DNA of 64,000 nucleotides, taken from Cyanobium sp. Morenito 9A2. GTDB lineage: Bacteria > Cyanobacteriota > Cyanobacteriia > PCC-6307 > Cyanobiaceae. The stretch covers positions 62,001 through 126,000 of the forward strand of contig NZ_JAGQBJ010000008.1 of NCBI RefSeq assembly GCF_024345575.1, given 5' to 3'. Positions within the stretch are counted from its first letter, which is position 1. Every line of letters begins with the position of its first letter. This document shows positions 9,945-53,614 of this stretch, piece by piece. The position numbers were made by a program, and so were the translations under genes. The notes below the pieces were generated by a model that did no database searches, was not told the DNA's origin, and saw only the letters and a program-made list of their open reading frames with translations.

Positions 9945-9952
9945 TGTAAACT

Positions 9953-10015
9953 TTTGAAATAGCTCTTCATCGCGGTATTCCAACCCATTGGAATGACTTA
10001 TGAAGCAGTTTCAAA
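9953..10015. other. AT-rich nested inverted repeat after tRNA-Gly
   Basis: Three nested complementary arms share one axis: TTTGAAA (9953-9959) with TTTCAAA (10009-10015), CTTCAT (9965-9970) with ATGAAG (10000-10005), and ATTCCAA (9977-9983) with TTGGAAT (9988-9994) around a CCCA loop. That is 20 base pairs in 63 bases, interrupted by unpaired bases on both sides. It begins 8 bases after the tRNA and lies in sequence of about 40 percent GC (24 of 60 bases in 9961-10020). It could be a terminator or processing signal for the tRNA transcript, an independent small RNA, or a miniature repeat. T-rich sequence follows on the plus strand but there is no clean U-tract. Confidence 0.5.
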
Positions 10016-10084
10016 TTCATTTGATTGTGTTGCTTGCCCCACGACCCTCCTCGCCGAGGCCTGGGACACATTCTTGGGCAGAAC

Positions 10085-10411
10085 TCAGGCGCGAGGCTTG
10101 ATCAGTTGAAGCACCTGGGGGCCCAGGCTCCCGGATCGACGCTCACAATCAAGCGACAAAAGGATGTGGCGCGCTGACTCGGCCAGATCGCCACGATCAG
10201 CGGCAGCTTCTGCGATCAACGCATGTTCCGAGGCCTGGTGGAGCAACGCGGATTTCTGTTCGTCGGACCCCGCTTGAATCCTTTGCTGGGCTTGCCGGGA
10301 TGACAACTGAAACGTGCTGGCCACTGCCGTGCCCTTAGGTGAATCAATTGTACTCCGGGGAGGAAAGATGACCAAGGGAGTCAACTGCGGGCTGGCATGA
10401 TCCTGGGCCAC
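10085..10411 (-). CDS. Unrecognised small soluble protein
   Basis: Starting from GTG 10411 this is 108 residues, with an internal GTG (the V of VASTFQLSSRQ) as a shorter alternative. The C-terminal 75 residues are helical (QAQQRIQAGSDEQKSALL, ASEHALIAEAAADRGD), a pattern like small helical-repeat proteins. No signal peptide, membrane helix or catalytic motif is visible. It lies 8 bases from the next small gene on the same strand, so the two are probably one unit. Function unknown. Confidence 0.55.
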   Translation of the reverse strand: MAQDHASPQLTPLVIFPPRSTIDSPKGTAVASTFQLSSRQAQQRIQAGSDEQKSALLHQASEHALIAEAAADRGDLAESARHILLSLDCERRSGSLGPQVLQLIKPRA

Positions 10412-10419
10412 CTGCTCTC

Positions 10420-10668
10420 TTAGGTGCCTGGTTCTTCGCGGTTCCCTCCAAGGGCCGCAATCTGAGCCCGAAGTTGATCGGAGCGATACTGATCCCCCCG
10501 GGTGATCGCCACAGCCAAAGCGAATTCAAGCTTTTCTAGCTGATGGCCCCCATCAAAAGAGGCCTCGGGTTGGCGACAGGCCGGGGTGCCGCCGGAGGCG
10601 GGGGAAGCGAAAGTTCTGTTACCGCTGTGAAGCCCGTTGGAGCTGCCCATGGTTCGCTTTCTTCTCAT
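10420..10668 (-). CDS. Unrecognised small protein
   Basis: 82 residues from ATG 10668; ATG 10650 would give 76. The first 40 residues are Ser/Gly-rich and low in structure. The second half (HQLEKLEFALAVAITRGDQY followed by RSDQLRAQIAALGG) reads as two amphipathic helices, which makes a real protein likely. It precedes the 108-residue gene by 8 bases. I know of no named family for it; short helical proteins of this look occur in picocyanobacterial genomes as conserved hypotheticals. Confidence 0.55.
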   Translation of the reverse strand: MRRKRTMGSSNGLHSGNRTFASPASGGTPACRQPEASFDGGHQLEKLEFALAVAITRGDQYRSDQLRAQIAALGGNREEPGT

Positions 10669-10689
10669 TCTGACACCCCAGGCCAGGGC

Positions 10690-11037
10690 CTAGGCGGCGT
10701 AGGCCTGCTCGCCATGGTCATCGCTGGGGCGCGCGATTGACTCCTGCCGCTCCCGACCCCTCTCCTGCCCGATCACCTGGGGATGAATGGCCTCCATGGG
10801 AGCCGGGGTGGGCAAGGCCGAGTCCTCCAGCAAGGCGCGGCAATCGACCAGCAAGCGCTCCACACTGTCGAGGGTCTCCAGCTCGTCAGCCCCAGGCAGG
10901 GCTCGGTGCTCCGCCTGCAGCTCCAGCCCAGCCAACCGCTGCTCCAAGCTCACGAGTCGGTGAGAGAGCGCCGTGACGGTGCGGGCCAGTTCCTCTGCCG
11001 TACGCGTGATCCGAAAAGAAACCGATTCGCTGGTCAT
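10690..11037 (-). CDS. Unrecognised coiled-coil protein
   Basis: I place the start at ATG 11037 (115 residues, MTSESVSFRITRTAEELART), because the upstream extension is Cys/Arg-rich and unlike coding sequence here. Residues about 10-45 form heptads (LARTVTALSHRLVSLEQRLAGLELQ), a probable coiled coil, followed by a second helix around SVERLLVDCRALLED. The tail is charged and likely disordered. It is the first of three small minus-strand genes and is divergent from the AbrB-type gene at 11132. Function unknown. Confidence 0.6.
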   Translation of the reverse strand: MTSESVSFRITRTAEELARTVTALSHRLVSLEQRLAGLELQAEHRALPGADELETLDSVERLLVDCRALLEDSALPTPAPMEAIHPQVIGQERGRERQESIARPSDDHGEQAYAA

Positions 11038-27373: not shown

Positions 27374-29215
27374 ATGACCCTCACCCCTGCCCGTCCCGTT
27401 CCCGCGGCGAAAACCACGGCCCAGCAGAGGCTGGAGGTCGAGTTGCTCATGGGGGAACAAGTGCTGCGTCCGGAGGTGCTGGGCCAGGGGAGCGGCGACG
27501 TCAGCTCCAACAGTTCCGTGCTCAGCCCCGAACGCTGTCGAGAACTGGGGTGCTTGGTGGTAGGCCGCGAAGGCAATCGCGTGACGATCGCGATCCCCAC
27601 GTTCTGGGGCCTGGAACAACGCCTGGCCCTGGGCGAAGAACTGTCTGAGAAGGGCCTGCAGACAGAATTGCGCATGGCGCTACAAGAGGAAATCGAGACC
27701 GCCCTCACCGGGAGGGGTTCGCTCACATCCGCCAGTGATTCGGGAGCCCCAATGGATGAACTGGACGATGGAGATGAAGAGGAAGAGGAAGACCTGCCGC
27801 CGCCGCGGCTCTCGCTGCTCGATGACCTCAACATTCCCGGACGGCTGGAGGAGTCCAAGGAGGAGGACACCAACAACATGGACCTCGAGTCCAGCATCAA
27901 CGCCTCCAATGCCTCACCGATCATCAGCCTGGTGGACAAGATCCTGATCCAGGCATTGAGCACAGGCACAAGTGACATACACGTGGAACCTCAGGAAGAT
28001 GGCCTGGTGATTCGCTTCCGCCAGGATGGGGTGTTGCAACAACTGGAAAAGCTTCCTAAAAACATTATCCCAGCGGTTACCTCGCGCCTCAAGATCATGT
28101 CCGATCTTGACATCGCCGAGCGTCGACTACCCCAGGATGGTCGTATTCGGCGCGTGTTCAGGGGACGAACCTTTGACCTTCGAGTCAGCACACTACCCAC
28201 CAAATACGGAGAGAAGGTGGTGATGCGTCTGCTGGACAGCGGAGCCACCCAATTGGGTCTCGACAAACTGATCACTGATCCTCTTGCCCTTGAAACCCTG
28301 CGTGACCTGGGCTCAAAACCCTTCGGGATGATTCTGGTCACCGGTCCTACTGGATCAGGTAAATCAACCACGCTCTATTCCCTCCTGGCCGAGCGCAACA
28401 GTCCAGACATCAACATCTCCACAGTCGAAGATCCCATCGAATACACCCTCAAAGGCATCACCCAAAGCCAGGTGAACCGGGACAAGGGCTTCGACTTCTC
28501 CATAGCCCTGCGCGCCTTCATGCGTCAGGATCCCGATGTGCTGCTGGTGGGGGAAACCAGGGATCTGGAAACGGCAAAAACCGCTATCGAAGCGGCCTTG
28601 ACTGGTCACCTGGTGCTGACCACCCTGCACTGCAACGACGCCCCGAGCGCGATCGCACGTCTTTCGGAGATGGGGGTGGAACCGTTCATGGTCAGCGCTT
28701 CCCTGCTCGGGATTGTCTCCCAACGACTGGTCCGACGGGTCTGCCCCAGCTGTCGCATTGAGTATCACCCCACCTCCCTGGAGCTGGGGCGCTTCGGACT
28801 GCTCAGCTCCTCTGAAGAGAACGTCACGTTCTTCAAGGCGAAGAAAACCCACCATGCCGGCAGTGGCATCTGCCCGACCTGCCAGGGCAGTGGCTACAAA
28901 GGCCGCATTGGTGTGTATGAAGTACTGCGCATCAATGAAAACCTGACCACCGCAATCGCCCAGCAATCCACCACCGATCAGATTCGTAAGATTGCAATCG
29001 AATCAGGTATGAAGACATTGCTCAGCTATGGTCTGGATCTGGTGCGCCAGGGGTACACAACACTTGAGGAGATTGAACGAATCATTCTCACCGATTCCGG
29101 CCTTGAGTCAGAACGCAGGGCGAGGGCCATTACCACAAGCACGTGCAGGGGCTGCGGCGCCGGTATGCGCGATGAGTGGCTTGAATGCCCCTACTGCCTG
29201 ACAGCTCGTATGTAG
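27374..29215 (+). CDS. pilB: Type IV pilus assembly ATPase PilB
   Basis: PilB is the hexameric extension motor of type IV pili, used for motility and DNA uptake. Of 613 residues, about 50-110 resemble a degenerate MshEN-type N-domain (LSPERCRELGCLVVGREGN). A run of acid residues follows (DELDDGDEEEEED). The ATPase core has GPTGSGKSTTLYSLL, the Asp box ISTVEDPIEY, the Walker B LVGETRDLETA and TTLHCNDAPSAIARL. The four-Cys zinc site CPSC...CPTC is normal for GspE/PilB. A further C-terminal ribbon, CRGCGAGMRDEWLECPYC, is an add-on I associate with cyanobacterial PilB. First gene of pilB-pilT-pilC. Confidence 0.93.
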   Translation: MTLTPARPVPAAKTTAQQRLEVELLMGEQVLRPEVLGQGSGDVSSNSSVLSPERCRELGCLVVGREGNRVTIAIPTFWGLEQRLALGEELSEKGLQTELRMALQEEIETALTGRGSLTSASDSGAPMDELDDGDEEEEEDLPPPRLSLLDDLNIPGRLEESKEEDTNNMDLESSINASNASPIISLVDKILIQALSTGTSDIHVEPQEDGLVIRFRQDGVLQQLEKLPKNIIPAVTSRLKIMSDLDIAERRLPQDGRIRRVFRGRTFDLRVSTLPTKYGEKVVMRLLDSGATQLGLDKLITDPLALETLRDLGSKPFGMILVTGPTGSGKSTTLYSLLAERNSPDINISTVEDPIEYTLKGITQSQVNRDKGFDFSIALRAFMRQDPDVLLVGETRDLETAKTAIEAALTGHLVLTTLHCNDAPSAIARLSEMGVEPFMVSASLLGIVSQRLVRRVCPSCRIEYHPTSLELGRFGLLSSSEENVTFFKAKKTHHAGSGICPTCQGSGYKGRIGVYEVLRINENLTTAIAQQSTTDQIRKIAIESGMKTLLSYGLDLVRQGYTTLEEIERIILTDSGLESERRARAITTSTCRGCGAGMRDEWLECPYCLTARM

Positions 29216-29267
29216 GGGTTGCTGATTCGCACCAAATCAAACAGAATAAGCGAAAGGCATTGTGGCC

Positions 29268-30347
29268 ATGGATCTCCTGATCGAAGACCTGATGATGAAA
29301 GTCGTCAAGGATGGTGGCAGCGACCTTCATCTCGCCGCCTACTGCCCTGCCTATGGCCGCTTCAACGGTCGACTTCTGCCAATCACGGAGGAGAAACTCA
29401 CCGAAGAAGACTGCAATCGTCTGATCTTTTCCCTGGTCAATAATTCCCAGCGCAAGCAGCTGGAGCAGAATTGGGAGCTTGACTGTTCCTACGGCCTCAA
29501 GGGAGTCGCACGATTCCGGGTGAATGTCTACCGCCAGCGAGGAACCTACGCGGCCTGTCTACGGGCCCTTGGCAACGACGTACCCAGCCTGGAGTCGCTC
29601 AACTTGCCACCCGTCGTTGAGGAGATGAGCCGCAAGCCCCGGGGCCTGGTACTGGTCACCGGACCCACTAGATCAGGGAAAACCACGACCCTGGCGGCGT
29701 TGCTCGATCACATCAACCACACCCGGGCTGAGCACATCATTACGGTCGAAGATCCGATCGAATTCACCTATAAAAATGACAAATCGCTGGTGCATCAGCG
29801 CCAGCTTCATGACGACACCAAGAGTTTTGCCAATGCCCTAAGAGCAGCCTTACGCGAAGACCCGGACGTGATCCTGGTTGGAGAAATGCGCGACTTGGAA
29901 ACAATTCAGCTGGCGATCACCGCCGCCGAAACGGGCCACTTGGTGTTTGGCACATTGCACACCAGTTCTGCCGCCCAGACCGTCGATCGCATGGTCGATG
30001 TGTTCCCCGCGGGCCAACAGACCCAGATCAGAGTGCAATTGAGCAACAGCTTGCTGGCCGTGTTCTCCCAGACACTCTGCCAACGCCTTGATCCCCAGCC
30101 AGGCCAGTTCGGTCGCGTGATGGCCCAGGAGATCATGATCAATACCCCCGCCATCGGGAACCTGATCCGTGAAGGCAAAACAGCCCAGATCTATTCCCAG
30201 ATCCAAACCGGGGGAACTTTCGGCATGATCACCTTGGAAAAAGCCCTGGCCGATATGGTGCTCAATGGCCAGATCAGCGCCAAGGAGGCCCTAGCCAAGG
30301 CCAGTAAGCCTGAGGAGCTGAATAGATTGCTCGAAAACAAGGTTTGA
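29268..30347 (+). CDS. pilT: Type IV pilus retraction ATPase PilT
   Basis: PilT depolymerises pili. ATG 29268 (359 residues) is preferred to GTG 29262 because AAAGG at 29253-29257 is spaced 10 bases. It has the N-terminal GGSDLHLAAYCPAYGRFNG, the Asp box ITVEDPIEFTYKN, Walker B ILVGEMRDLETIQLAI, and the His box GTLHTSSAAQTVDR. The motif EIMINTPAIGNLIREGK, like the conserved AIRNLIREGK of PilT, is near the C-terminus. The Walker A loop reads GPTRSGKTTT; the fourth residue is Arg135 where almost all family members have Gly, from AGA at 29670-29672. Otherwise intact. Confidence 0.92.
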   Translation: MDLLIEDLMMKVVKDGGSDLHLAAYCPAYGRFNGRLLPITEEKLTEEDCNRLIFSLVNNSQRKQLEQNWELDCSYGLKGVARFRVNVYRQRGTYAACLRALGNDVPSLESLNLPPVVEEMSRKPRGLVLVTGPTRSGKTTTLAALLDHINHTRAEHIITVEDPIEFTYKNDKSLVHQRQLHDDTKSFANALRAALREDPDVILVGEMRDLETIQLAITAAETGHLVFGTLHTSSAAQTVDRMVDVFPAGQQTQIRVQLSNSLLAVFSQTLCQRLDPQPGQFGRVMAQEIMINTPAIGNLIREGKTAQIYSQIQTGGTFGMITLEKALADMVLNGQISAKEALAKASKPEELNRLLENKV

Positions 30348-30376
30348 TCACCACCTGAACTGCTCAATCCACCGCC

Positions 30377-31642
30377 ATGCCCTCCTTCACCGCCACCTAC
30401 ACCAACGTCCTTGGGCTCACACGAAAAATCAAGCTCTCAGCGAGCGATTCCGCTGGAGCAAAGCGAAATCTTAGGCGTCGTGGAATATCTCCCAACACCT
30501 TAACTTTGACGGATGCCACGAAAACTGAGGCCGTTAAAGTCAGCAGCACCGATTCCAAGAAGAGTTCGCTGTTTACGATGGATCTCGGTGCTGCATTTGA
30601 AAAGGTTCCCGGCGTTAAGGACAAAGCCATTTTCGCCACCAAGCTCGGGGCGATGGTCGATGCGGGCGTTCCGATCGTGCGCAGCCTTGATCTCATGGCC
30701 AACCAGCAGAAATTGCCGATGTTCAAACGGGCCCTCAGTGAGATTAGTTCGGATGTAAACCAAGGGGCGAGCCTGGGTTCGTCGATGCGAAAGTTTCCAA
30801 AAATTTTCGACCGGCTGTTCGTGGCCATGGTGGAAGCCGGAGAGGCCGGTGGTGTGCTTGATGAAACCCTGCGCCGCTTGTCTATCCTTTTGGAGAACAT
30901 CGCCAAGCTTCAGAACCAGATCAAAGGAGCACTCAGCTACCCCATTGCTGTGTTTGTGATCGCCATCGGAGTCTTCCTGGGGATGACGATCTTTGTGATC
31001 CCGCAATTTGCAGATATTTTCAAGCAACTCGGTGCCGAGCTGCCCGCCTTTACCCAAGCCTTGGTAGATCTCAGCACCTTGTTGCGCTCTACCTTCTCAT
31101 TCTTTCTAGTAGGTGGAATCGTGCTGGCCGCATGGTTATTCCTACGTTTTTATGCCACTCCGGTGGGCAGGCGTAAAGTCGATGCTATCACGCTCAAGAT
31201 TCCCCTTTTTGGAGACCTGATCCAGAAAAGTTCCACCGCCCAGTTCTGCCGCGTCTACAGTTCCCTGAGCCGGGCCGGGGTACCAATCCTGTTATGCCTT
31301 GAGATAGTTCAGGAAACCTCCGGTAACTCGATTATTGCCGATGCCATCGGCGCTTCGAGAAAAGATGTACAGGAAGGCATCAACCTTAGCACCTCACTTA
31401 ATCGAAAAAACGTGTTTCCCGACATGGCGATGAGCATGCTCGCGATCGGAGAAGAAACTGGAGAAATGGATAAGATGCTCACCAAAGTAGCTGATTTCTA
31501 TGAAGATGAAGTCACAGCTACCACCAAAGCCCTCACAGCCTTAATCGAGCCATTCATGATCGTGATCGTCGGTGGAATGGTCGCTTCCATCTTGGTGGCC
31601 ATGTACCTACCGATGTTCGCCGTCTTCGACAAAATCCGCTGA
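30377..31642 (+). CDS. pilC: Type IV pilus inner-membrane platform protein PilC
   Basis: PilC sits in the cytoplasmic membrane and couples the PilB/PilT motors to pilin assembly. The 421 residues have an N-terminal soluble part, then two T2SSF domains. The first is around KLGAMVDAGVPIVRSLDLMA with the membrane helix GALSYPIAVFVIAIGVFLGM. The second is around RVYSSLSRAGVPILLCLEIV, ending in the helix FMIVIVGGMVASILVAMYLPMF and AVFDKIR. It is 29 bases after pilT. Base composition is well below the flanking genes. Its 3' end overlaps the convergent flavoprotein gene by 36 bases. Confidence 0.94.
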   Translation: MPSFTATYTNVLGLTRKIKLSASDSAGAKRNLRRRGISPNTLTLTDATKTEAVKVSSTDSKKSSLFTMDLGAAFEKVPGVKDKAIFATKLGAMVDAGVPIVRSLDLMANQQKLPMFKRALSEISSDVNQGASLGSSMRKFPKIFDRLFVAMVEAGEAGGVLDETLRRLSILLENIAKLQNQIKGALSYPIAVFVIAIGVFLGMTIFVIPQFADIFKQLGAELPAFTQALVDLSTLLRSTFSFFLVGGIVLAAWLFLRFYATPVGRRKVDAITLKIPLFGDLIQKSSTAQFCRVYSSLSRAGVPILLCLEIVQETSGNSIIADAIGASRKDVQEGINLSTSLNRKNVFPDMAMSMLAIGEETGEMDKMLTKVADFYEDEVTATTKALTALIEPFMIVIVGGMVASILVAMYLPMFAVFDKIR

Positions 31643-34667: not shown

Positions 34668-36098
<1,431 letters not shown>

Positions 36099-36149
36099 CA
36101 GGGCCGTTGAACAACCGCAATCGCACAGCTTGACACCCCAGGCCAGGGC

Positions 36150-37559
36150 TCAGTTCGGCAGGGCGGGCAGCGCCACCTCCTCCCGCACCTTCAACACCAC
36201 CATCGAGGCATCGTCCTCCAGATGGTGATCGGGGCCGACGAAGCGATCCAGGCGGCCGAAAAGTTGATCGAGAATTCCCTGGGCACCGATGCCGGAGCGG
36301 CAGGCGCTCTGCAGGGCGCGCATCAGCCGCTCCTCATCGAAGCGCTCTCCCGAAAACCCCGTGGCCTCGGTGACCCCATCGGTGTAATAAAGCAGCACGT
36401 CGCCAGGTTCCAGCACCAGCTGCTCGCAGCCGTAGTCGGCATCGGGCTGCAGACCGATCAGCAACCCCGGAGCATCCAGGCGATCGACGCTGTTGCGCTG
36501 CCGGCGCCAGATCAGGGGAGGATTGTGGGCGGCATTGGCGTAGCGCAGCAGGCGCGTCCGCGGGTCGTAGTCGGAATAGAACAGCGTGACGAACCGGTGG
36601 GAGTGGGCCAGGTCCTCCTGGGCCAGCTGGTTGAGGTCGTGGAGGATGCGATCCGGCGGCAGGCCGCTGAGCACCTCGGCCCGCAACATCCCCCGCAGAA
36701 GGGTCATCAGCAGGCTTGCGGGCACCCCCTTGCCCATCACATCCCCCATCACCAGGGCCCAGCGGCCCTGCTCGCGCCCGCGACCCACCAATTGGGGGCG
36801 GGTGGGGATGAAGTCGTAGTAGTCACCGCCCACCTGGAAGGCGGGGCGGCAACGGGCCGCCAACTCGACGCCCTCGATCACCGGGCAGTGGTCCGGCAGG
36901 AGCTGGGCCTGGATCTCGGCACCGGTGCTGAGCTGACGGTCCAGACGCTCGTGCAGGCGCCGGTCCTGCACCAGGGCTTCGCTCTCCAGGGCCACGCCGG
37001 TGAGATCGGCCACCAGTTGCAGGTGGCGGCGGTGCACATCGCTCCAGCAAAGGGCCTCCCTTGCACTGAACACATAGAGCCTTCCCCGCTGGCGGTTACG
37101 CGCCACCACGGAGGTGCCGAAAAAGAGCTGATCCTTGAGCAGTCGGCCCAGGTGCTGATCAAGCCGTTGGGCGACCTCCTCCTCGCCCGCCTCGATCGCC
37201 AGTTGGCGGTCCTCAAGCATCGCGAGCTGGCGCAACAGCTCAGTGGCGCGCCCAGGGGCGCTCACCTGCAGCTGCTCGCGCCAGAGGCGGCCATCACTGT
37301 GGAACACCACCAGCACGGCCCCCTCGGCCCCCACCAGCCTGGAGGCCACCAGGGGCACCAACTCCAGGAAGCGGTTGAGGTTGGTGTAACTCCGCAGGGC
37401 GAAGCCGAGGGAACTGAGCAGCTCCTGGTTACGGCGCTGCTCGCGGCTGAGGCTGTCGAGCAGTTGCCGTAACGAAGCGCCCACCGTCTGGGCTACCCCG
37501 GCCTGCTGCTGCGCCGCGGGGGGCGGGGGGGATCCGAAAGCGGGCGGCTGGCTGCTCAA
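36150..37559 (-). CDS. SpoIIE/RsbU-type PP2C protein phosphatase
   Basis: 469 residues. A GAF-like sensory part spans about residues 50-205 (RLVGAEGAVLVVFHSDGRLWR). Then the PPM phosphatase: RPAFQVGGDYYDFIPT, VMGDVMGKGVPASLLMTLLRGM, YANAAHNPPLIWRR, YTDGVTEATGFSGERF, and DDASMVVLKV at the end. The Asp residues of GGDYYD, GDVMGKG, TDGVTE and DDAS are the metal ligands. The family dephosphorylates anti-anti-sigma factors. No partner kinase or antagonist is nearby, so the target is open. It lies 51 bases upstream of argH. Confidence 0.9.
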   Translation of the reverse strand: MSSQPPAFGSPPPPAAQQQAGVAQTVGASLRQLLDSLSREQRRNQELLSSLGFALRSYTNLNRFLELVPLVASRLVGAEGAVLVVFHSDGRLWREQLQVSAPGRATELLRQLAMLEDRQLAIEAGEEEVAQRLDQHLGRLLKDQLFFGTSVVARNRQRGRLYVFSAREALCWSDVHRRHLQLVADLTGVALESEALVQDRRLHERLDRQLSTGAEIQAQLLPDHCPVIEGVELAARCRPAFQVGGDYYDFIPTRPQLVGRGREQGRWALVMGDVMGKGVPASLLMTLLRGMLRAEVLSGLPPDRILHDLNQLAQEDLAHSHRFVTLFYSDYDPRTRLLRYANAAHNPPLIWRRQRNSVDRLDAPGLLIGLQPDADYGCEQLVLEPGDVLLYYTDGVTEATGFSGERFDEERLMRALQSACRSGIGAQGILDQLFGRLDRFVGPDHHLEDDASMVVLKVREEVALPALPN

Positions 37560-37654
37560 CGGAGCGGCCGCAGAGGACCCGAAAGGTAGCAGCGATTCAG
37601 CGGTCGGACGGGGCGATGAAAACTGGAAGGGGTGGCTGCGCCCCGGAGGCAGGC

Positions 37655-39298
37655 TCAGGTGGCCAGCAGGGCTTCGACGAACTCGAAACTGTTGAAGGGA
37701 CGCAAATCGCGGATGGTTTCACCGGCGCCGATGAAACGGATGGGCAAGCCGGCCTCCGACGCCACCGCCACCGCCACCCCGCCCCGGGAACTGCCGTCGA
37801 GCTTGGTCAGCACCACGCCCGTGAGACCGGCGGCCTTGGCGAAGGCCATCGCCTGGCGCAGACCGTTCTGGCCCTGACTGGAATCAAGCACCAGCAAGGA
37901 TTCCACCGCCGCCTCCGGCGCCAATCGATCAACGATGCGCCTCACCTTGGCCAGCTCCTCCATCAGGTTGTGCTTGGTCTGCAACCGTCCGGCGGTGTCC
38001 ACCAGCACTAGATCGAGCCCCCTGGACTGGGCCGCCCCGATCGCATCAAAGACCACGGCGGCGGGATCAGCGTTGGCTGAGGCGTTGGCAATCACCGCCA
38101 CACCACTGCGCTCACCCCAGACCTTCACCTGCTCCACCGCCGCGGCCCGGAAGGTGTCGGCGGCGGCGATCAGGCAGGAGTAGCCGCTGCGCACCGCCAG
38201 ATGGGCCAGCTTGCCCAGGGTGGTGGTCTTGCCGACGCCGTTCACCCCCACCAGCAACCAGACGTTCAGGCGGCCCCGTGCGGGAGCCAGCAGGGACTGG
38301 CCGCTGGCCGTGATCGGCTCCTCCAGAAGTCCCTGGAGCTGCTGCTTGAGAAAGCGGATCCCCTCCGAGGGATCGACCACCTCCACGTTCAGGCGGCGGC
38401 GCAGGGCCTCGAGCACCTGATCGGTGGCCTTCACGCCCACATCGGCGCGCAGCAGCAGCGATTCGAGTTCATCGAGCACCTCCGGTCCCAGCGGGTCATC
38501 GCCGAAGGTTTCGAGCAGCTGGGACACCAGCCCCTGGCGGGTCTTCTCCATCCCCCGCCGCAGGCGCGAGAGCCAGTCGATTTCCTCCAGCGACACCTGG
38601 TCGACCCGGCGCCCCTGGGCCGCCAACACCTCCGCCGACCAGGTGAAGTCGGCGTCGAAGGCCCCCAGCTGGGGCTGATCCTCAAGGGTCGGCGCAGGGA
38701 CTGAACCCGACGCTGGGGCCTGGGCTGCAGCGGTCGGCGTCCCGGGGGCACGCTCCAGCAACGCCTCTTGGCGCTGACGACGCTCGGCCGCCGCCCGCTC
38801 GAGCAGGGACAGGCCCTGACCCATTGCCATTGGTTCTGGGGCGCCAGCATCTGTGGAGGAGCGCTCGGGGGGAGTCGGGACCGCTGCTTCGATGGCGCTC
38901 CGCCCCGGCGCCGGAGGCGCAGCCACGGTCGTAGCGGTGGCCGCCGCCGCTTGGCGCTCGGCCTCCTGCTTGTCCTTCAACCGGGCATAGGCCTCGCGGG
39001 CCCACTCCAGGGCCTCGTCGCGGGCCTGATCGGGGCTGACACCCCTGGGTGGTGGTGGCGGGAGTGGTGCGGAAAGGGCTGGACTGGGAGCGGGTGCCGT
39101 CGGTGAAGAGTCCCTGCCGGCCTCGCCATCGGGGGTTGAACCACCGGCGGGAGCAAGGGCTCCGGGGCTGGGGGGTTCAGCCGCAGGGGGGTCCGTGGCC
39201 GGGCGGGGGTCCGCAGGCGACTCGGGCCCGGGGGGGGGCACCCCGGCATCGCCCTCACTGGCCACACGACGGCCCCGCTGGAACCAGTTGAAGACCAT
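37655..39298 (-). CDS. ftsY: Signal recognition particle receptor FtsY
   Basis: FtsY docks SRP-ribosome complexes at the membrane. The 547 residues split into a long N-terminal A domain of about 235 residues, rich in Pro/Ala and with charged helices ([20 protein letters not shown]), and the NG domain: the N helix bundle, then G1 [37 protein letters not shown], and the closing [24 protein letters not shown] alone would be about 300 residues. It starts 3 bases after the nusB stop on the same strand, so nusB-ftsY are coupled. Confidence 0.95.
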
Positions 39299-43374: not shown

Positions 43375-45831
43375 ATGGCCGAGGAGCGCATCCAGCCAAT
43401 CGCCCTGCATCAGGAGATGCAGCGCTCTTACCTCGAGTACGCCATGAGCGTGATCGTGGGGCGGGCCCTGCCGGACGTGCGCGACGGTCTCAAGCCCGTG
43501 CAGCGGCGCATCCTGTTCGCGATGCACGAGCTGGGTCTCACCCCTGATCGGCCCTACCGCAAATGCGCGCGGGTGGTGGGGGATGTGCTGGGCAAGTACC
43601 ATCCCCACGGCGACCAGGCGGTCTATGACGCCCTGGTGCGGCTGGTGCAGACCTTCGCCAGTCGCCATCCTCTACTGGATGGCCATGGCAATTTCGGCTC
43701 CGTCGACGACGACCCGGCCGCCGCCATGCGTTACACGGAGACACGGCTCGCGCCGATCTCCCATGAGGCGCTGCTCGATGAAATCGGCAACGACACGGTT
43801 GATTTCGCCTCCAACTTCGATGGCTCCCAACAGGAGCCGACGGTGCTCCCCGCCCAGTTGCCCTTCCTGCTGCTGAACGGCTGCTCGGGCATCGCCGTGG
43901 GGATGGCCACCAACATCCCACCCCACAACCTCGGCGAGGTGGTGGATGCCCTGATCTCCCTGGTGCGCAAGCCCGACCTCAGCGACGACAAGCTGCTGGA
44001 GCTCGTGCCAGGCCCCGACTTTCCCACCGGAGGCGAGGTGCTCACCGGCAGCGGTGTGCGTGACACCTACCTGGGCGGCCGCGGCAGCATCCCCATGCGC
44101 GGGGTCGCCCACATCGAAGAAGTGCAGCCCGGCAAGGGCCGCCACCGTCGCGCCGCGGTTGTGATCACTGAGCTTCCCTATCAGCTGAGCAAGGCGGGCT
44201 GGATCGAGAAACTGGCCGAGCAGGTGAACGACGGCAAGATCGGCGGCATCGCCGACATCCGCGACGAAAGCGACCGCGACGGCATGCGCGTGGTGGTGGA
44301 GCTGCGCCGCGATGCCGAAGCCACGAACGTGCTCGGCGAACTGCAGCGCCGTACGGCATTGCAGAGCAACTTCGGCGCGATCCTGCTGGCCCTGGTGGAC
44401 GGCAAACCCCAGCAACTGAGCTTGCGCCAACTGCTGGAGCGGTTCCTGGAGTACCGCGAACACACCATGATCCGCCGCACCAACCACGCTCTCAAGCGCG
44501 CCGAAGACCGCCTGGAGGTGGTGGAGGGTCTGATCAAGGCCCTCGACGCCCTGCAACGGGTGATCGCCCTGATCCAGGCGGCCGCAGACGCGGCCTCAGC
44601 CCGGGCCAGCCTGCAGGTGCAGCTTGGCCTGAGCGAACGCCAGGCGGACGCCGTGCTCGCCATGCCCCTGCGACGGCTCACCAGCCTGGAACAAGACGGC
44701 CTGCGCAGCGAAGCCGAGGAGCTGCGGGGAGAGCGCACACGGCTGCGGGAGCTGCTCGACAACCGCGACAGCCTGCTGGAGGCCCTGGTCCGTGAGCTCA
44801 AGGCGCTCAGGAAGCGCTTTGCCACCCCCCGCCGCACCCGCCTGGTGGAGGGGGGCGATGCCCTGGTGGCCCAGCGGGCGGCGGCCGTGCGACCCAATGC
44901 CGAACGCCAGCGCCAACAGGCCTACGGGGCCCTGGCCAGTGATGGCCGGTTGGTGATCAGCGCCGATGGCCAGGTGAGGATCGTCGCCCCCCAGCTGCTG
45001 GGGCGCTTGCATTTGGACGAGCCCGTGGATCTGGGGGAACACCCGGCTCCGGCCCGTCTGATCCTGCCGATCGCAGGCCAACCCAGCCTGCTGGCCTTCA
45101 CCAGCAGCGGCCGAGCGGCCCTGCTGCGCTGGGAGTTTGCTGGCCAGCAAACGGGGAACCTTGAGAAATTCCTCCCCGAAAGCCTCGAGGGCGAACGCGT
45201 GGTGCAGGTGCTTCCCCTCGTGGGCGATGCCTCCCTCAGCCTGGGGCTGCTCAGCAGCGATGGCCGCTTCAAGCGCCTGCCGACGAGCGAATTCCAGGAG
45301 CTCTCCGGCCGGGCCGTCACGGTGCTCAAGCTTCGCGATGGCGTGGAGCTTCAGCGGGTGGTGACCTGCCGAGAAGGAGATGACCTGATCGTGGCCAGCA
45401 GCACCGGTCGGGTGCTGAAACTGGCGGTGAACGAAGTCAACCTGCCGCTGATGGGGCGCAGTGCCCAGGGGCCAGTGCTGATGCGCCTGCTGCCGGGTGA
45501 AACCGTGGTGGGCGCGGTGACCGCCGGAGCAAGCGACGACGTGCTACTCGCCAGCACCGGTGGACAGCTCAAGCGCCTGCGGGCCGGCGGCCTGCGCCGC
45601 TGCGAGCGGGGGGATCTGGGGCAGATCGGGCTGCGCTTCCAGGAGCGCAGCGATCAGTTGGTGGATCTCCAGGGACTGGGGTCGGGGCTGGTGAGCGTGC
45701 TGGTGGGCGACAAGCGCCATTTCCGGTTCAACGCCGACCAACTCGAAACCCAGGACGCCCCTGGCAGCGGTGAACATTATCCCCTGGGCGAGGGCGAACG
45801 CGTGAGGGAGCTCGTGCCCCTGATCCGCTGA
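43375..45831 (+). CDS. Type IIA DNA topoisomerase subunit A (GyrA/ParC)
   Basis: 818 residues. The breakage-reunion domain has [37 protein letters not shown] and the catalytic Tyr120 in AAMRYTE. The tower and coiled coil come next, then a six-bladed DNA-wrapping domain (blades such as [18 protein letters not shown] and [18 protein letters not shown]). The GyrA box QRRGGKG that allows gyrase to wrap DNA and introduce negative supercoils is not visible. This suggests the ParC-like or second GyrA-type subunit of cyanobacteria. Its partner GyrB/ParE is outside the window. It reads toward purF. Confidence 0.9.
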
Positions 45832-50811: not shown

Positions 50812-51963
50812 TCAGGTCCGAATCTGAATGGGCATCACCAGATAGGTGAAGGCCCCACCCTCCACCGGCGCCAGGACCGCGGGGGTGGTGGGAGCGTTCA
50901 CGCGCAACTCCACCCGTTCGGAGACGATCGCCTTGAGGCCCTCCAGGACATAGCGCACGTTGAAGGCGATCTGGATCGGCTCGCCGCTGATCACCGCCGC
51001 CAGGGCCTCTGAACCACTGCCCACGTCCTGGACATCGGCACTGATCGAGAGTTGGCCGCTGGCGGGGTCGCTGCTGAGCTTGACCACGTTGTTGTACTGG
51101 TCCGCCAGCACCGCCACGCGCTCGAGGGCGGCGATCAGGCCACGACGGTCGATCTCCAGCACGCGGTTGAAGCTGTCGGGGATGAGCTGGCGGTAATTGG
51201 GGTAGGTGCCATCGAGGCTGCGGCTGGTGACCACCTGGTCGCCCCAGAGGAACACCACCTGGCCGCGGTCGTAGAAAAGGTTGACCGGATCGGCGGACTG
51301 GCGCGCCGAGAGCAACCGCTCCAGCTCCCGCAGGGAGCGCGCGGGCACGGTCACAGCGAAGGGCTCCCCTTCTCCCGCTTCGGCAGCCGCCCCAGGCAAG
51401 GCGTTGGTCAAGCGCAGCACCGAGAGTCGGTGGCCGTCGGTGGCGGCGAACTCCAGATCGTTCCCCTCCAGGCTCAGGTGCACGCCCGTGAGCAGCTGCT
51501 TAGCCTCGTCGCCGCTGCTGGCGAACAGGGTGGCGCGCAGGCCCCGGACCAAGGCCTCGGCCTCGAGACGAATCGGCACGCCCGTTTGCAGCAGGGGCAG
51601 CTCAGGAAAATCCTCGGCAGCCAGACCGCGCACCTGATAGCTCCCGGAGAGGCTGGTGAGCTCCACCTGCTCGCTCTCCTCGAGGTTGACCAGGGTGATC
51701 GGGCTGTCACTGGCCTGGCGCGAGACGATTTCGCCGAACAGGCGTGCCGGCAGGGTGATGGCGCCGCTGGATTCCACCGAGGCCGGCAGGCTGGTTTGGA
51801 TGCCAAGACTGAGATCAAAGCCAGTAAGGCTCAAGCGACCGGTACCCGCATCCGCCGTCAACAGCACGTTGGCGAGCACGGGATGATTCGGTCGCGCGGA
51901 CACCGCCCGGCTCACCAGCTGGAGGCTGGCATTCAGTTCGGCCTGGGAGCAGACCAGCTTCAT
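50812..51963 (-). CDS. dnaN: DNA polymerase III sliding clamp (beta subunit)
   Basis: DnaN is the ring-shaped clamp that tethers the polymerase. ATG 51963 gives 383 residues: MKLVCSQAELNASLQLVSRA is the family start, and an ORF extension upstream is rejected. The three repeats are visible by FEFAATDGHRLSVLRL-type segments (LEFAATDGHRLSVLRLTNAL), LFASSGDEAKQLLTGVHLSL, and the C-terminal YLVMPIQIRT, ending in the clamp hydrophobic patch. It reads leftward from the candidate origin, as is usual in this group. Confidence 0.96.
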   Translation of the reverse strand: MKLVCSQAELNASLQLVSRAVSARPNHPVLANVLLTADAGTGRLSLTGFDLSLGIQTSLPASVESSGAITLPARLFGEIVSRQASDSPITLVNLEESEQVELTSLSGSYQVRGLAAEDFPELPLLQTGVPIRLEAEALVRGLRATLFASSGDEAKQLLTGVHLSLEGNDLEFAATDGHRLSVLRLTNALPGAAAEAGEGEPFAVTVPARSLRELERLLSARQSADPVNLFYDRGQVVFLWGDQVVTSRSLDGTYPNYRQLIPDSFNRVLEIDRRGLIAALERVAVLADQYNNVVKLSSDPASGQLSISADVQDVGSGSEALAAVISGEPIQIAFNVRYVLEGLKAIVSERVELRVNAPTTPAVLAPVEGGAFTYLVMPIQIRT

Positions 51964-52158
51964 CGGCGCAGACCCTGGGCTTGGAGAGAAGGATGGCCCA
52001 TCACGGGCGACACCACGCTTCCACAAGGCGTCGCGATCCGCAACGGTTCCTCGGACCTTCCGGCCTCCAGGTCCCGTTGGGGTGGCCTGATCAAGGACGT
52101 TCTACGGATCAAGAAAGGATTGAATCCAAGTAATCAAAAACTTCGTAGCCGTAGGGGC

Positions 52159-52176
52159 TGTGGAAATCGTGGAAAA
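52159..52176. promoter_or_regulatory. Two adjacent DnaA-box-like 9-mers
   Basis: On the minus strand the sequence reads TTTTCCACG then ATTTCCACA back to back (plus-strand positions 52168-52176 and 52159-52167). The cyanobacterial consensus DnaA box is TTTTCCACA, so each differs in one position. The two abut with no spacer. They follow the AT-rich stretch that ends about 52145. Binding is not shown. Confidence 0.45.
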
Positions 52177-52258
52177 GTCCGCAAAAGTCTTGCAAGAGAA
52201 TGGATCGTCATCGAGATTCGCTGGGGAGAGCGAGAGCGAGAGCCGTGATTTCGAGCTG

Positions 52259-52267
52259 TTTTCCACT
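52259..52267 (+). promoter_or_regulatory. DnaA-box-like 9-mer
   Basis: TTTTCCACT on the plus strand, one mismatch from TTTTCCACA. It lies 82 bases right of the tandem pair and has the opposite orientation. It is followed at once by the inverted repeat TTTCCCC-GGACT-GGGGAAA. Confidence 0.4.
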
Positions 52268-52440
52268 CTTTCCCCGGACTGGGGAAAAACAATGACCATC
52301 CATGACTCACCCCCGTCCGTGCTTTTCCCCGTTTCTGGCGCTCTTTTCCCCCGTTACCCCCTCGACCAGTTTCAGGAATGACTGGTCACCAACGGAGACC
52401 CGGACCGCTTCTTCCGGGGGCATGAGACGCTCCATGGGCC

Positions 52441-52467
52441 TAAAAAAACCGACCCTTGGGGTCGGTT
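52441..52467 (-). terminator. Intrinsic terminator of thrC
   Basis: On the minus strand AACCGACCC pairs with GGGTCGGTT (9 bp, 52447-52455 with 52459-52467) around a 3-base loop, followed by a run of seven or more T residues (52448 down to 52442). It lies 44 bases beyond the thrC stop. This is one of the clearest terminators in the window. Confidence 0.85.
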
Positions 52468-52510
52468 GCAGGGCTCCATCCCTGGGACGCGTCCGCCGCA
52501 GGGCGCGGTG

Positions 52511-53614
52511 TTAGAAGCCCATCACCTGGGCCACCGTGGCCAGGTCGGGATTCAGATCGGGGTGGAAGGCAGCATCGTTGTTCTCGATCGCGCAGGTGGG
52601 ATCCTTCAGACCATTGCCCGTGAGCACGCAGACCACCGTGGCCCCGGCCGGCACCACATCGGCCTGTTGCAGCAGCCCCGCCACCGAAGCGGCACTGGCG
52701 GGTTCACAGAACACACCCTCCTGGCTGCCCAGCAGTTTGTAGGCCTTCACGATTTCGGCGTCGGTCACGGCGTTGAAAGCGCCACCGCTCTCGCTACGCA
52801 CCTTCAGGGCCTTTTCCCGGTTGGCCGGGTTGCCGATCCGGATGGCCGTGGCGATGGTGTCCGGTTGCTCCACCGTGTGGCCCAGCACCAGCGGGGCGGA
52901 ACCGCTGGCCTGAAAGCCCATCATCCTGGGCAACTTGCGGCTCAGGCCCGCCTGGCGGTACTCCTGGAAGCCCATCCAGTAGGCGCTGATGTTGCCGGCG
53001 TTGCCCATGGGGATGCAGAGCCAGTCGGGGGCGTCACCAAGGGCATCCACCACCTCGAAGGCGGCGGTCTTCTGGCCTTGCAGGCGGTAGGGATTGAGCG
53101 AATTCACCAGGGTGACCGGGTAGCGCTCGGCCACCTCGCGCACGATCGTCAGGGCCTGGTCGAAATTGCCGCGCACCGCCAGCACCTCAGCGCCGTAGAG
53201 CAGGGCCTGGGCCAGTTTTCCCTGGGCCACGTAGCCGTCGGGGATCAGCACGAAGGCGCGCATGCCGGCCCGGCGGGCGTAGGCGGCCGCCGCCGCAGAG
53301 GTGTTCCCCGTGCTGGCGCAGATCACCGCGCTCGAGCCGGCCTCCTTGGCCTTGCTGATCGCCATGGTCATGCCCCGGTCCTTGAAGCTGCCGGTGGGAT
53401 TGAGACCGTCGTACTTGAGGAACACCTTCACGCCACGGCCGATGCGTTCGGCCACGGCGGGCGCCGGGATCAGCGGCGTGCCCCCCTCGCGCAGGGTGAT
53501 CACCGGGGTGCGCTCGGACACCGGCAACCAGCGCCGGTAGCCCTCGATCAGTCCGGGCCAATCCTGGAAGGCCGACTTTCTGCCCAGGTTGCGCAGGGAG
53601 GAAAGCAGCGGCAC
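52511..53614 (-). CDS. thrC: Threonine synthase
   Basis: ThrC converts O-phosphohomoserine to threonine with PLP. The 367-residue protein from GTG 53614 has GGTPLIPAPAV, the PLP lysine K78 in NPTGSFKDRGMT, the phosphate loop CASTGNTSAAAAAYARRAG and the serine-type segment MGNAGNISAYWMGFQE. This is the shorter, type of threonine synthase found in cyanobacteria and plants-type lineages, without the long N-terminal regulatory extension. It has its own terminator toward the origin region. Confidence 0.94.
   Translation of the reverse strand: MPLLSSLRNLGRKSAFQDWPGLIEGYRRWLPVSERTPVITLREGGTPLIPAPAVAERIGRGVKVFLKYDGLNPTGSFKDRGMTMAISKAKEAGSSAVICASTGNTSAAAAAYARRAGMRAFVLIPDGYVAQGKLAQALLYGAEVLAVRGNFDQALTIVREVAERYPVTLVNSLNPYRLQGQKTAAFEVVDALGDAPDWLCIPMGNAGNISAYWMGFQEYRQAGLSRKLPRMMGFQASGSAPLVLGHTVEQPDTIATAIRIGNPANREKALKVRSESGGAFNAVTDAEIVKAYKLLGSQEGVFCEPASAASVAGLLQQADVVPAGATVVCVLTGNGLKDPTCAIENNDAAFHPDLNPDLATVAQVMGF

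Follow-up and report, generated by a model that had tools for sequence, protein, structure and literature searches.

The 547-bp gap between dnaN and thrC in this genome is very probably a DnaA-dependent chromosome origin of a known kind, as judged from comparative evidence, and we consider it highly likely that DnaA would open this oriC by means of a basal unwinding system (BUS), its cytosine-bearing DnaA-trios included. The type of origin itself is already known; what appears to be new is the natural occurrence of trios with cytosine in place of adenine, which are missed by the published rule of three consecutive NAN triplets. From the evidence described below, we infer that this is a starting point of replication, where DnaA attaches to the DNA and melts it, and that the trios with cytosine are functional.

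The window, that is, the whole stretch of 64,000 nucleotides that was analyzed, comprises bases 62001-126000 of contig C25 (144,921 bp) in a draft genome of 3.10 Mb and 26 contigs. The gap is intergenic and adjoins dnaN; its limits, as given in an earlier note on this DNA, are exact, running from the dnaN start codon at 51963 (minus strand) to the thrC stop codon, which begins at 52511. The features of the region are as follows (coordinates in the window, strand, feature and basis).

50812 to 51963, minus: dnaN, DNA polymerase III sliding clamp (Pfam PF00712/PF02767/PF02768; ATG aligned with relatives)
51964 to 52510, no strand: candidate oriC region, intergenic between dnaN (minus) and thrC (minus) (single match in the own genome)
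52018 to 52025, plus: DnaA-box-like CTTCCACA in the dnaN leader (comparison with relatives)
52111 to 52142, no strand: AT-rich block directly after the trios (8 G/C in 30)
52143 to 52154, minus: four DnaA-trios, written toward dnaN as CTA CGG CTA CGA (pattern and relatives)
52155 to 52158, minus: 4-nt GC-rich spacer GCCC (column profile over relatives)
52159 to 52167, minus: tandem DnaA boxes, downstream member, ATTTCCACA, directly adjoining the upstream one (column profile, 109 relatives)
52168 to 52176, minus: tandem DnaA boxes, upstream member, TTTTCCACG (column profile, 109 relatives)
52259 to 52267, plus: distal DnaA box TTTTCCACT (box search)
52280 to 52288, minus: distal DnaA box TTTTCCCCA, 112 nt upstream of the tandem pair (slot conserved in relatives)
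52323 to 52331, plus: distal DnaA box TTTTCCCCG (box search)
52344 to 52352, plus: distal DnaA box TTTTCCCCC (box search)
52447 to 52467, minus: intrinsic-terminator-like hairpin after thrC (sequence)

The hairpin at 52447-52467 would shield the origin from thrC transcription. The sole Rfam match in the gap fell below threshold, and an RNA element was rejected on this ground; a search of the gap for a promoter consensus found none, its strand folding was not unusual (z -1.5), and no plasmid match to it was found. The gap had been described as the only gene-free stretch above 300 bases, which holds for the gap itself but is doubtful as to uniqueness, because the segment at about 9945-10690 also lacks a Pfam-supported ORF. 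This segment lies next to tRNA-Gly(CCC) and holds one of the three most AT-rich 30-mers of the window. The divergent gene orientation reported around the gap was likewise found in large part: dnaN, purL and purF point leftward, recN and uvrA point rightward, and thrC, the DUF1400 gene and the ABC1 kinase gene are exceptions, to which gyrA (43375-45831, plus), lying left of the gap, has to be added, while the gene named "PRC" had no Pfam match. Elsewhere in the window, a block of type II/IV secretion-pilus genes at 27374-31642 (two T2SSE ATPases and T2SSF) has a GC content of about 0.56 compared with about 0.65-0.70 in the rest, which suggests a different origin or constraint.

The DnaA-box-like 9-mers pointed out earlier are present and strongly clustered, with six boxes, each within one mismatch of TTTTCC[A/C]CA, in the 194 bp at 52159-52352. 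The whole 145-kb contig contains 47 sites within one mismatch of this consensus, and its other 350-bp stretches hold at most two each; the cluster, which is of the TTTTCCACA type, is thus denser than expected by chance. Of 106 relatives, 100 have at least two distal boxes upstream. One slot, 110-119 bp ahead of the tandem pair, is favored, and a box in the same slot and orientation as TTTTCCCCA was seen 77 times among these relatives.

Read toward dnaN on the window minus strand, the central part of the gap has the order TTTTCCACG-ATTTCCACA-GCCC-CTA-CGG-CTA-CGA-AGTTTTTGATTACTTGGATTC. The two tandem boxes are co-oriented and abutting, and the 4-nt spacer places them within 16 nt of the trios, which is the layout of a BUS. 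The trio strand is the window plus strand (3'-GAT GCC GAT GCT-5'), on which the four middle bases are A, C, A and C. The AT-rich block that follows is a probable duplex unwinding element; the figure of 8 G/C in 30 at 52111-52140 is correct as first stated, and runs of this composition occur three times in the window, the other two near 9992 and 14059. The earlier note therefore had the right place but missed the unwinding module, its polarity and its unusual trios. A pattern combining boxes, spacer and trios matched the own genome once without mismatch, and each of the six other matches had two mismatches; a backward control pattern gave 17 matches at two mismatches and none at one mismatch.

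Next to consider is the conservation of this module in the family of relatives, presumably, judging by gene order, box type and genome sizes, the picocyanobacterial Synechococcus/Cyanobium/Prochlorococcus group. Almost all of the 115 family members carry this block some 130-220 bp ahead of dnaN, and conservation across the family extends to both the 9-mers and the AT-rich block, as the earlier note had required of a true origin. Because T or G in trio 2 scored slightly higher in the search for the trio register, the register was found again from the tandem boxes alone, with no trio information, and was identical in 110 of the 115 members; the five with a differing register were left out of the trio counts, which cover 78 GC-rich members. 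Of 21 cyanobacteria outside the family, 15 have a similarly scoring block before dnaN, and in each of them the middle base of trios 1-3 is T as written. Two family members stand apart. In L217 (genome G077), the module could not be placed at its usual position upstream of dnaN. L030 (genome G026), which has a long dnaN branch, shows no recognizable module upstream of dnaN and only one perfect box, near the end of a neighboring gene; its origin has possibly been lost or moved.

The trios themselves differ with base composition. AT-rich members mostly have CTA CTA CTA CTR, corresponding to canonical 3'-GAT-5' trios. In the GC-rich members, trio 1 is kept (middle T as written, which is A on the trio strand, in 77 of 78), whereas trios 2-4 vary by lineage, CTA CGA CTA CGG being the commonest form and CTA CGA CGA CGG, CTA CTA CGG CTG and others occurring as well. 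The middle bases of trios 2-4 in the 78 GC-rich members are, as written, G in 132 cases, T in 93, A in 5 and C in 4; in the sense of the trio strand, there are 132 changes from A to C and 9 to G or T among 234 cells. Of the 78 members, 69 carry only A or C, the amino-bearing bases allowed by the base-capture model, at all four middle positions of the trio strand, and so does the origin studied here. The published BUS rule, which asks for at least three consecutive 3'-NAN-5' trios within 16 nt of a box, passes over this origin and fails in 48 of 83 GC-rich relatives versus 1 of 32 AT-rich ones. The fewest middle-base changes on a dnaN tree were 0, 9, 8 and 11 for trios 1 to 4, respectively, numbers to be read with the fact that this was a quick tree with many weak forks and that related genomes are phylogenetically linked rather than independent.

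It appears to us fairly probable, from these comparisons, that GC-rich picocyanobacteria have repeatedly swapped the captured adenine of trios 2-4 for cytosine and for almost nothing else, with trio 1 staying A. The real trio code would then be an amino-group middle base (A or C), strictly A in trio 1, and many GC-rich origins scored as lacking a BUS would have one hidden from the NAN rule. A less likely, although serious, account is that the origin is real but its altered triplets reflect plain GC drift, with only trio 1, or trios 1 and 3, mattering and trios 2 and 4 having no function. This account fits the occurrence of the changes in GC-rich genomes and their absence or rarity in AT-rich ones, and the near-invariance of trio 1 agrees with the reported preference for the box-proximal trio (PMC8287927). 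However, drift should produce C and G equally often on the written strand. The T-rich DNA immediately downstream does show such a balance (G 189, C 216), and the 132 G and 4 C of trios 2-4 depart strongly from it (Fisher p ~1e-30); collapsed by genus, the counts are still G 38 versus C 4 as written (p 1.5e-8). Moreover, at the T positions of the boxes, drift goes the other way and favors C (29 C versus 8 G). This choice of G over C against a balanced downstream control indicates that GC pressure alone is no sufficient cause, while a mutational or dinucleotide bias beyond the reach of that control, for example one favoring CG, could contribute to the preference for cytosine.

The DnaA protein is in keeping with the exchange of adenine for cytosine. 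The dnaA gene is intact and located on a different contig (C20); its product has domains I, III and IV and is 61% identical to B. subtilis DnaA over 204 aligned positions of the AAA+ domain. It retains all seven residues named by Pelliciari et al. (2023), namely N187, I190, I193, R202, K222, E223 and E228. In the cryo-EM structure of B. subtilis DnaA on its BUS, two trio bases are captured between protomers, and the amino group of the middle adenine is bonded to Asn187 (PMC10721633). Cytosine, which also bears an amino group, can replace the middle adenine in strand separation, performs better in vivo than G or T and is the only substitute found to be tolerated there (PMC10721633); the same authors proposed from their mutants that the captured adenine can be exchanged for cytosine, and that DnaA proteins of other kinds might recognize various sequences (PMC10721633). 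BUS activity in vitro has been shown for the DnaA of Synechococcus elongatus among others (PMC8287927). On the simplest reading, this lineage may have let its trios drift to the other base accepted by the DnaA pocket, and the near-constancy of trio 1 points to a first capture step that would be less tolerant.

A further question is whether this well-ordered locus is in fact where replication starts. GC skew was examined in the complete relative G010, in forty 20-kb samples taken at even intervals. To one side of the region upstream of dnaN, most samples were negative (mean -0.026), and to the other most were positive (mean +0.028), a difference reached by none of 5000 permutations, and the cumulative skew was V-shaped with its minimum between the samples flanking the locus, where the earlier note had predicted it. 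In a second complete relative, G024, the skew was weak (permutation p 0.03) with the best split elsewhere, and this genome decides little. On the own contig, skew averaged -0.034 on the left side of the gap and +0.025 on its right side, and the step at the gap was the largest of 144 circular shifts, only the true position reaching it, although in this 26-contig draft the best single break falls at 35-39 kb of the window, about 13 kb left of the gap. The best-fitting break (35000-39000) is near an SRP54/ftsY-like gene and a nusB-like gene. It was rejected as a rival origin, as no box cluster is found there.

Three lines, namely the skew, the intact dnaA and the ordered conservation upstream of dnaN, agree, and on this agreement the origin proposed in the earlier note is upheld. 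An improbable alternative is that an ancestral origin has been kept as sequence but is unused, with replication, as in Synechocystis PCC 6803, beginning at another site or at many, so that the block would be a relic or serve only in dnaN regulation. Some cyanobacteria that carry dnaA indeed do not need DnaA, and independence from DnaA and oriC has been documented in several of them (PMC7198777); the weak skew of G024 also points in this direction. On the contrary, DnaA-independent species are reported to have irregular skew, while that of G010 is cleanly V-shaped with its minimum here, and a relic would lose the module order, spacing and constrained middle bases that are kept across most of the family. 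Very improbable is the view that the boxes serve transcription, with DnaA regulating dnaN and the gap being a long promoter region: it draws on the conserved box-like TGTGGAAG in the dnaN leader but leaves the fixed order of tandem boxes, spacer, trios and AT-rich block as well as the skew minimum unexplained, and such regulation may hold in addition to an origin role. Read toward dnaN, TGTGGAAG occurs in the leader of 58 of 83 GC-rich versus 2 of 32 AT-rich family members, in the GC-rich relatives 32-62 nt before the dnaN start codon, and is possibly a site of DnaA or promoter control of dnaN.

Returning to the preferred reading of a working DnaA-dependent origin, the following course of events is proposed. 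DnaA would bind the tandem boxes (52176-52159) via domain IV, aided by the distal cluster at 52259-52352, and a DnaA-ATP filament would grow from these boxes toward dnaN on the window plus strand. This filament would capture the trio bases at 52154-52143, with adenine in the middle of trios 1 and 3 and cytosine in place of adenine in the middle of trios 2 and 4, and the duplex would then melt into the AT-rich block at 52142-52111, where the helicase would be loaded. Selection may restrict the trio middles to A or C, bases whose exocyclic amino group could be bound by the DnaA asparagine equivalent to B. subtilis Asn187.

If so, the many separate A-to-C changes in the family would amount to a natural experiment on how DnaA recognizes single-stranded origin DNA. 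They would also imply a simple correction to programs that search for origins. In 15% of genomes no unwinding module was found, and for some of these the corrected search could bring one to light.

Compared with known systems, the locus resembles the oriC of Synechococcus elongatus PCC 7942 and the cyanobacterial origins of DoriC and Ori-Finder in lying directly upstream of dnaN, in its cluster of TTTTCCACA-type boxes and in its regular skew (PMC6323995, PMC4674748, PMC7198777), but differs from them in having no perfect TTTTCCACA box and in carrying C for A in trios 2 and 4. Origins adjacent to dnaN are listed for cyanobacteria in DoriC, and C-shifted boxes have already been noted for the GC-rich Cyanobium gracile (PMC6323995). 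L032, a relative outside the family with perfect boxes, has the canonical CTA TTA CTA CTG, unlike the present origin. With the B. subtilis BUS (DnaA-box 6/7, GC spacer and DnaA-trios), it shares two co-oriented boxes, a short GC-rich spacer, trios, AT-rich DNA and polarity toward dnaN, together with the conservation of all base-capture residues of DnaA; in contrast to B. subtilis, there are fewer than three consecutive trios with a middle adenine, A and C alternating, and dnaA is not adjacent but on a different contig. No description of natural origins with C-for-A trios was found in the literature searched, whose coverage was incomplete. A close counterpart is the origin that Pelliciari et al. 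(2023) engineered with A-to-C trios, in which a middle C in the DnaA-trios is reported as functional (PMC10721633); in that laboratory strain, trios 1-3 had all been altered, while the changes seen here arose naturally, affect trios 2-4 and leave trio 1 untouched.
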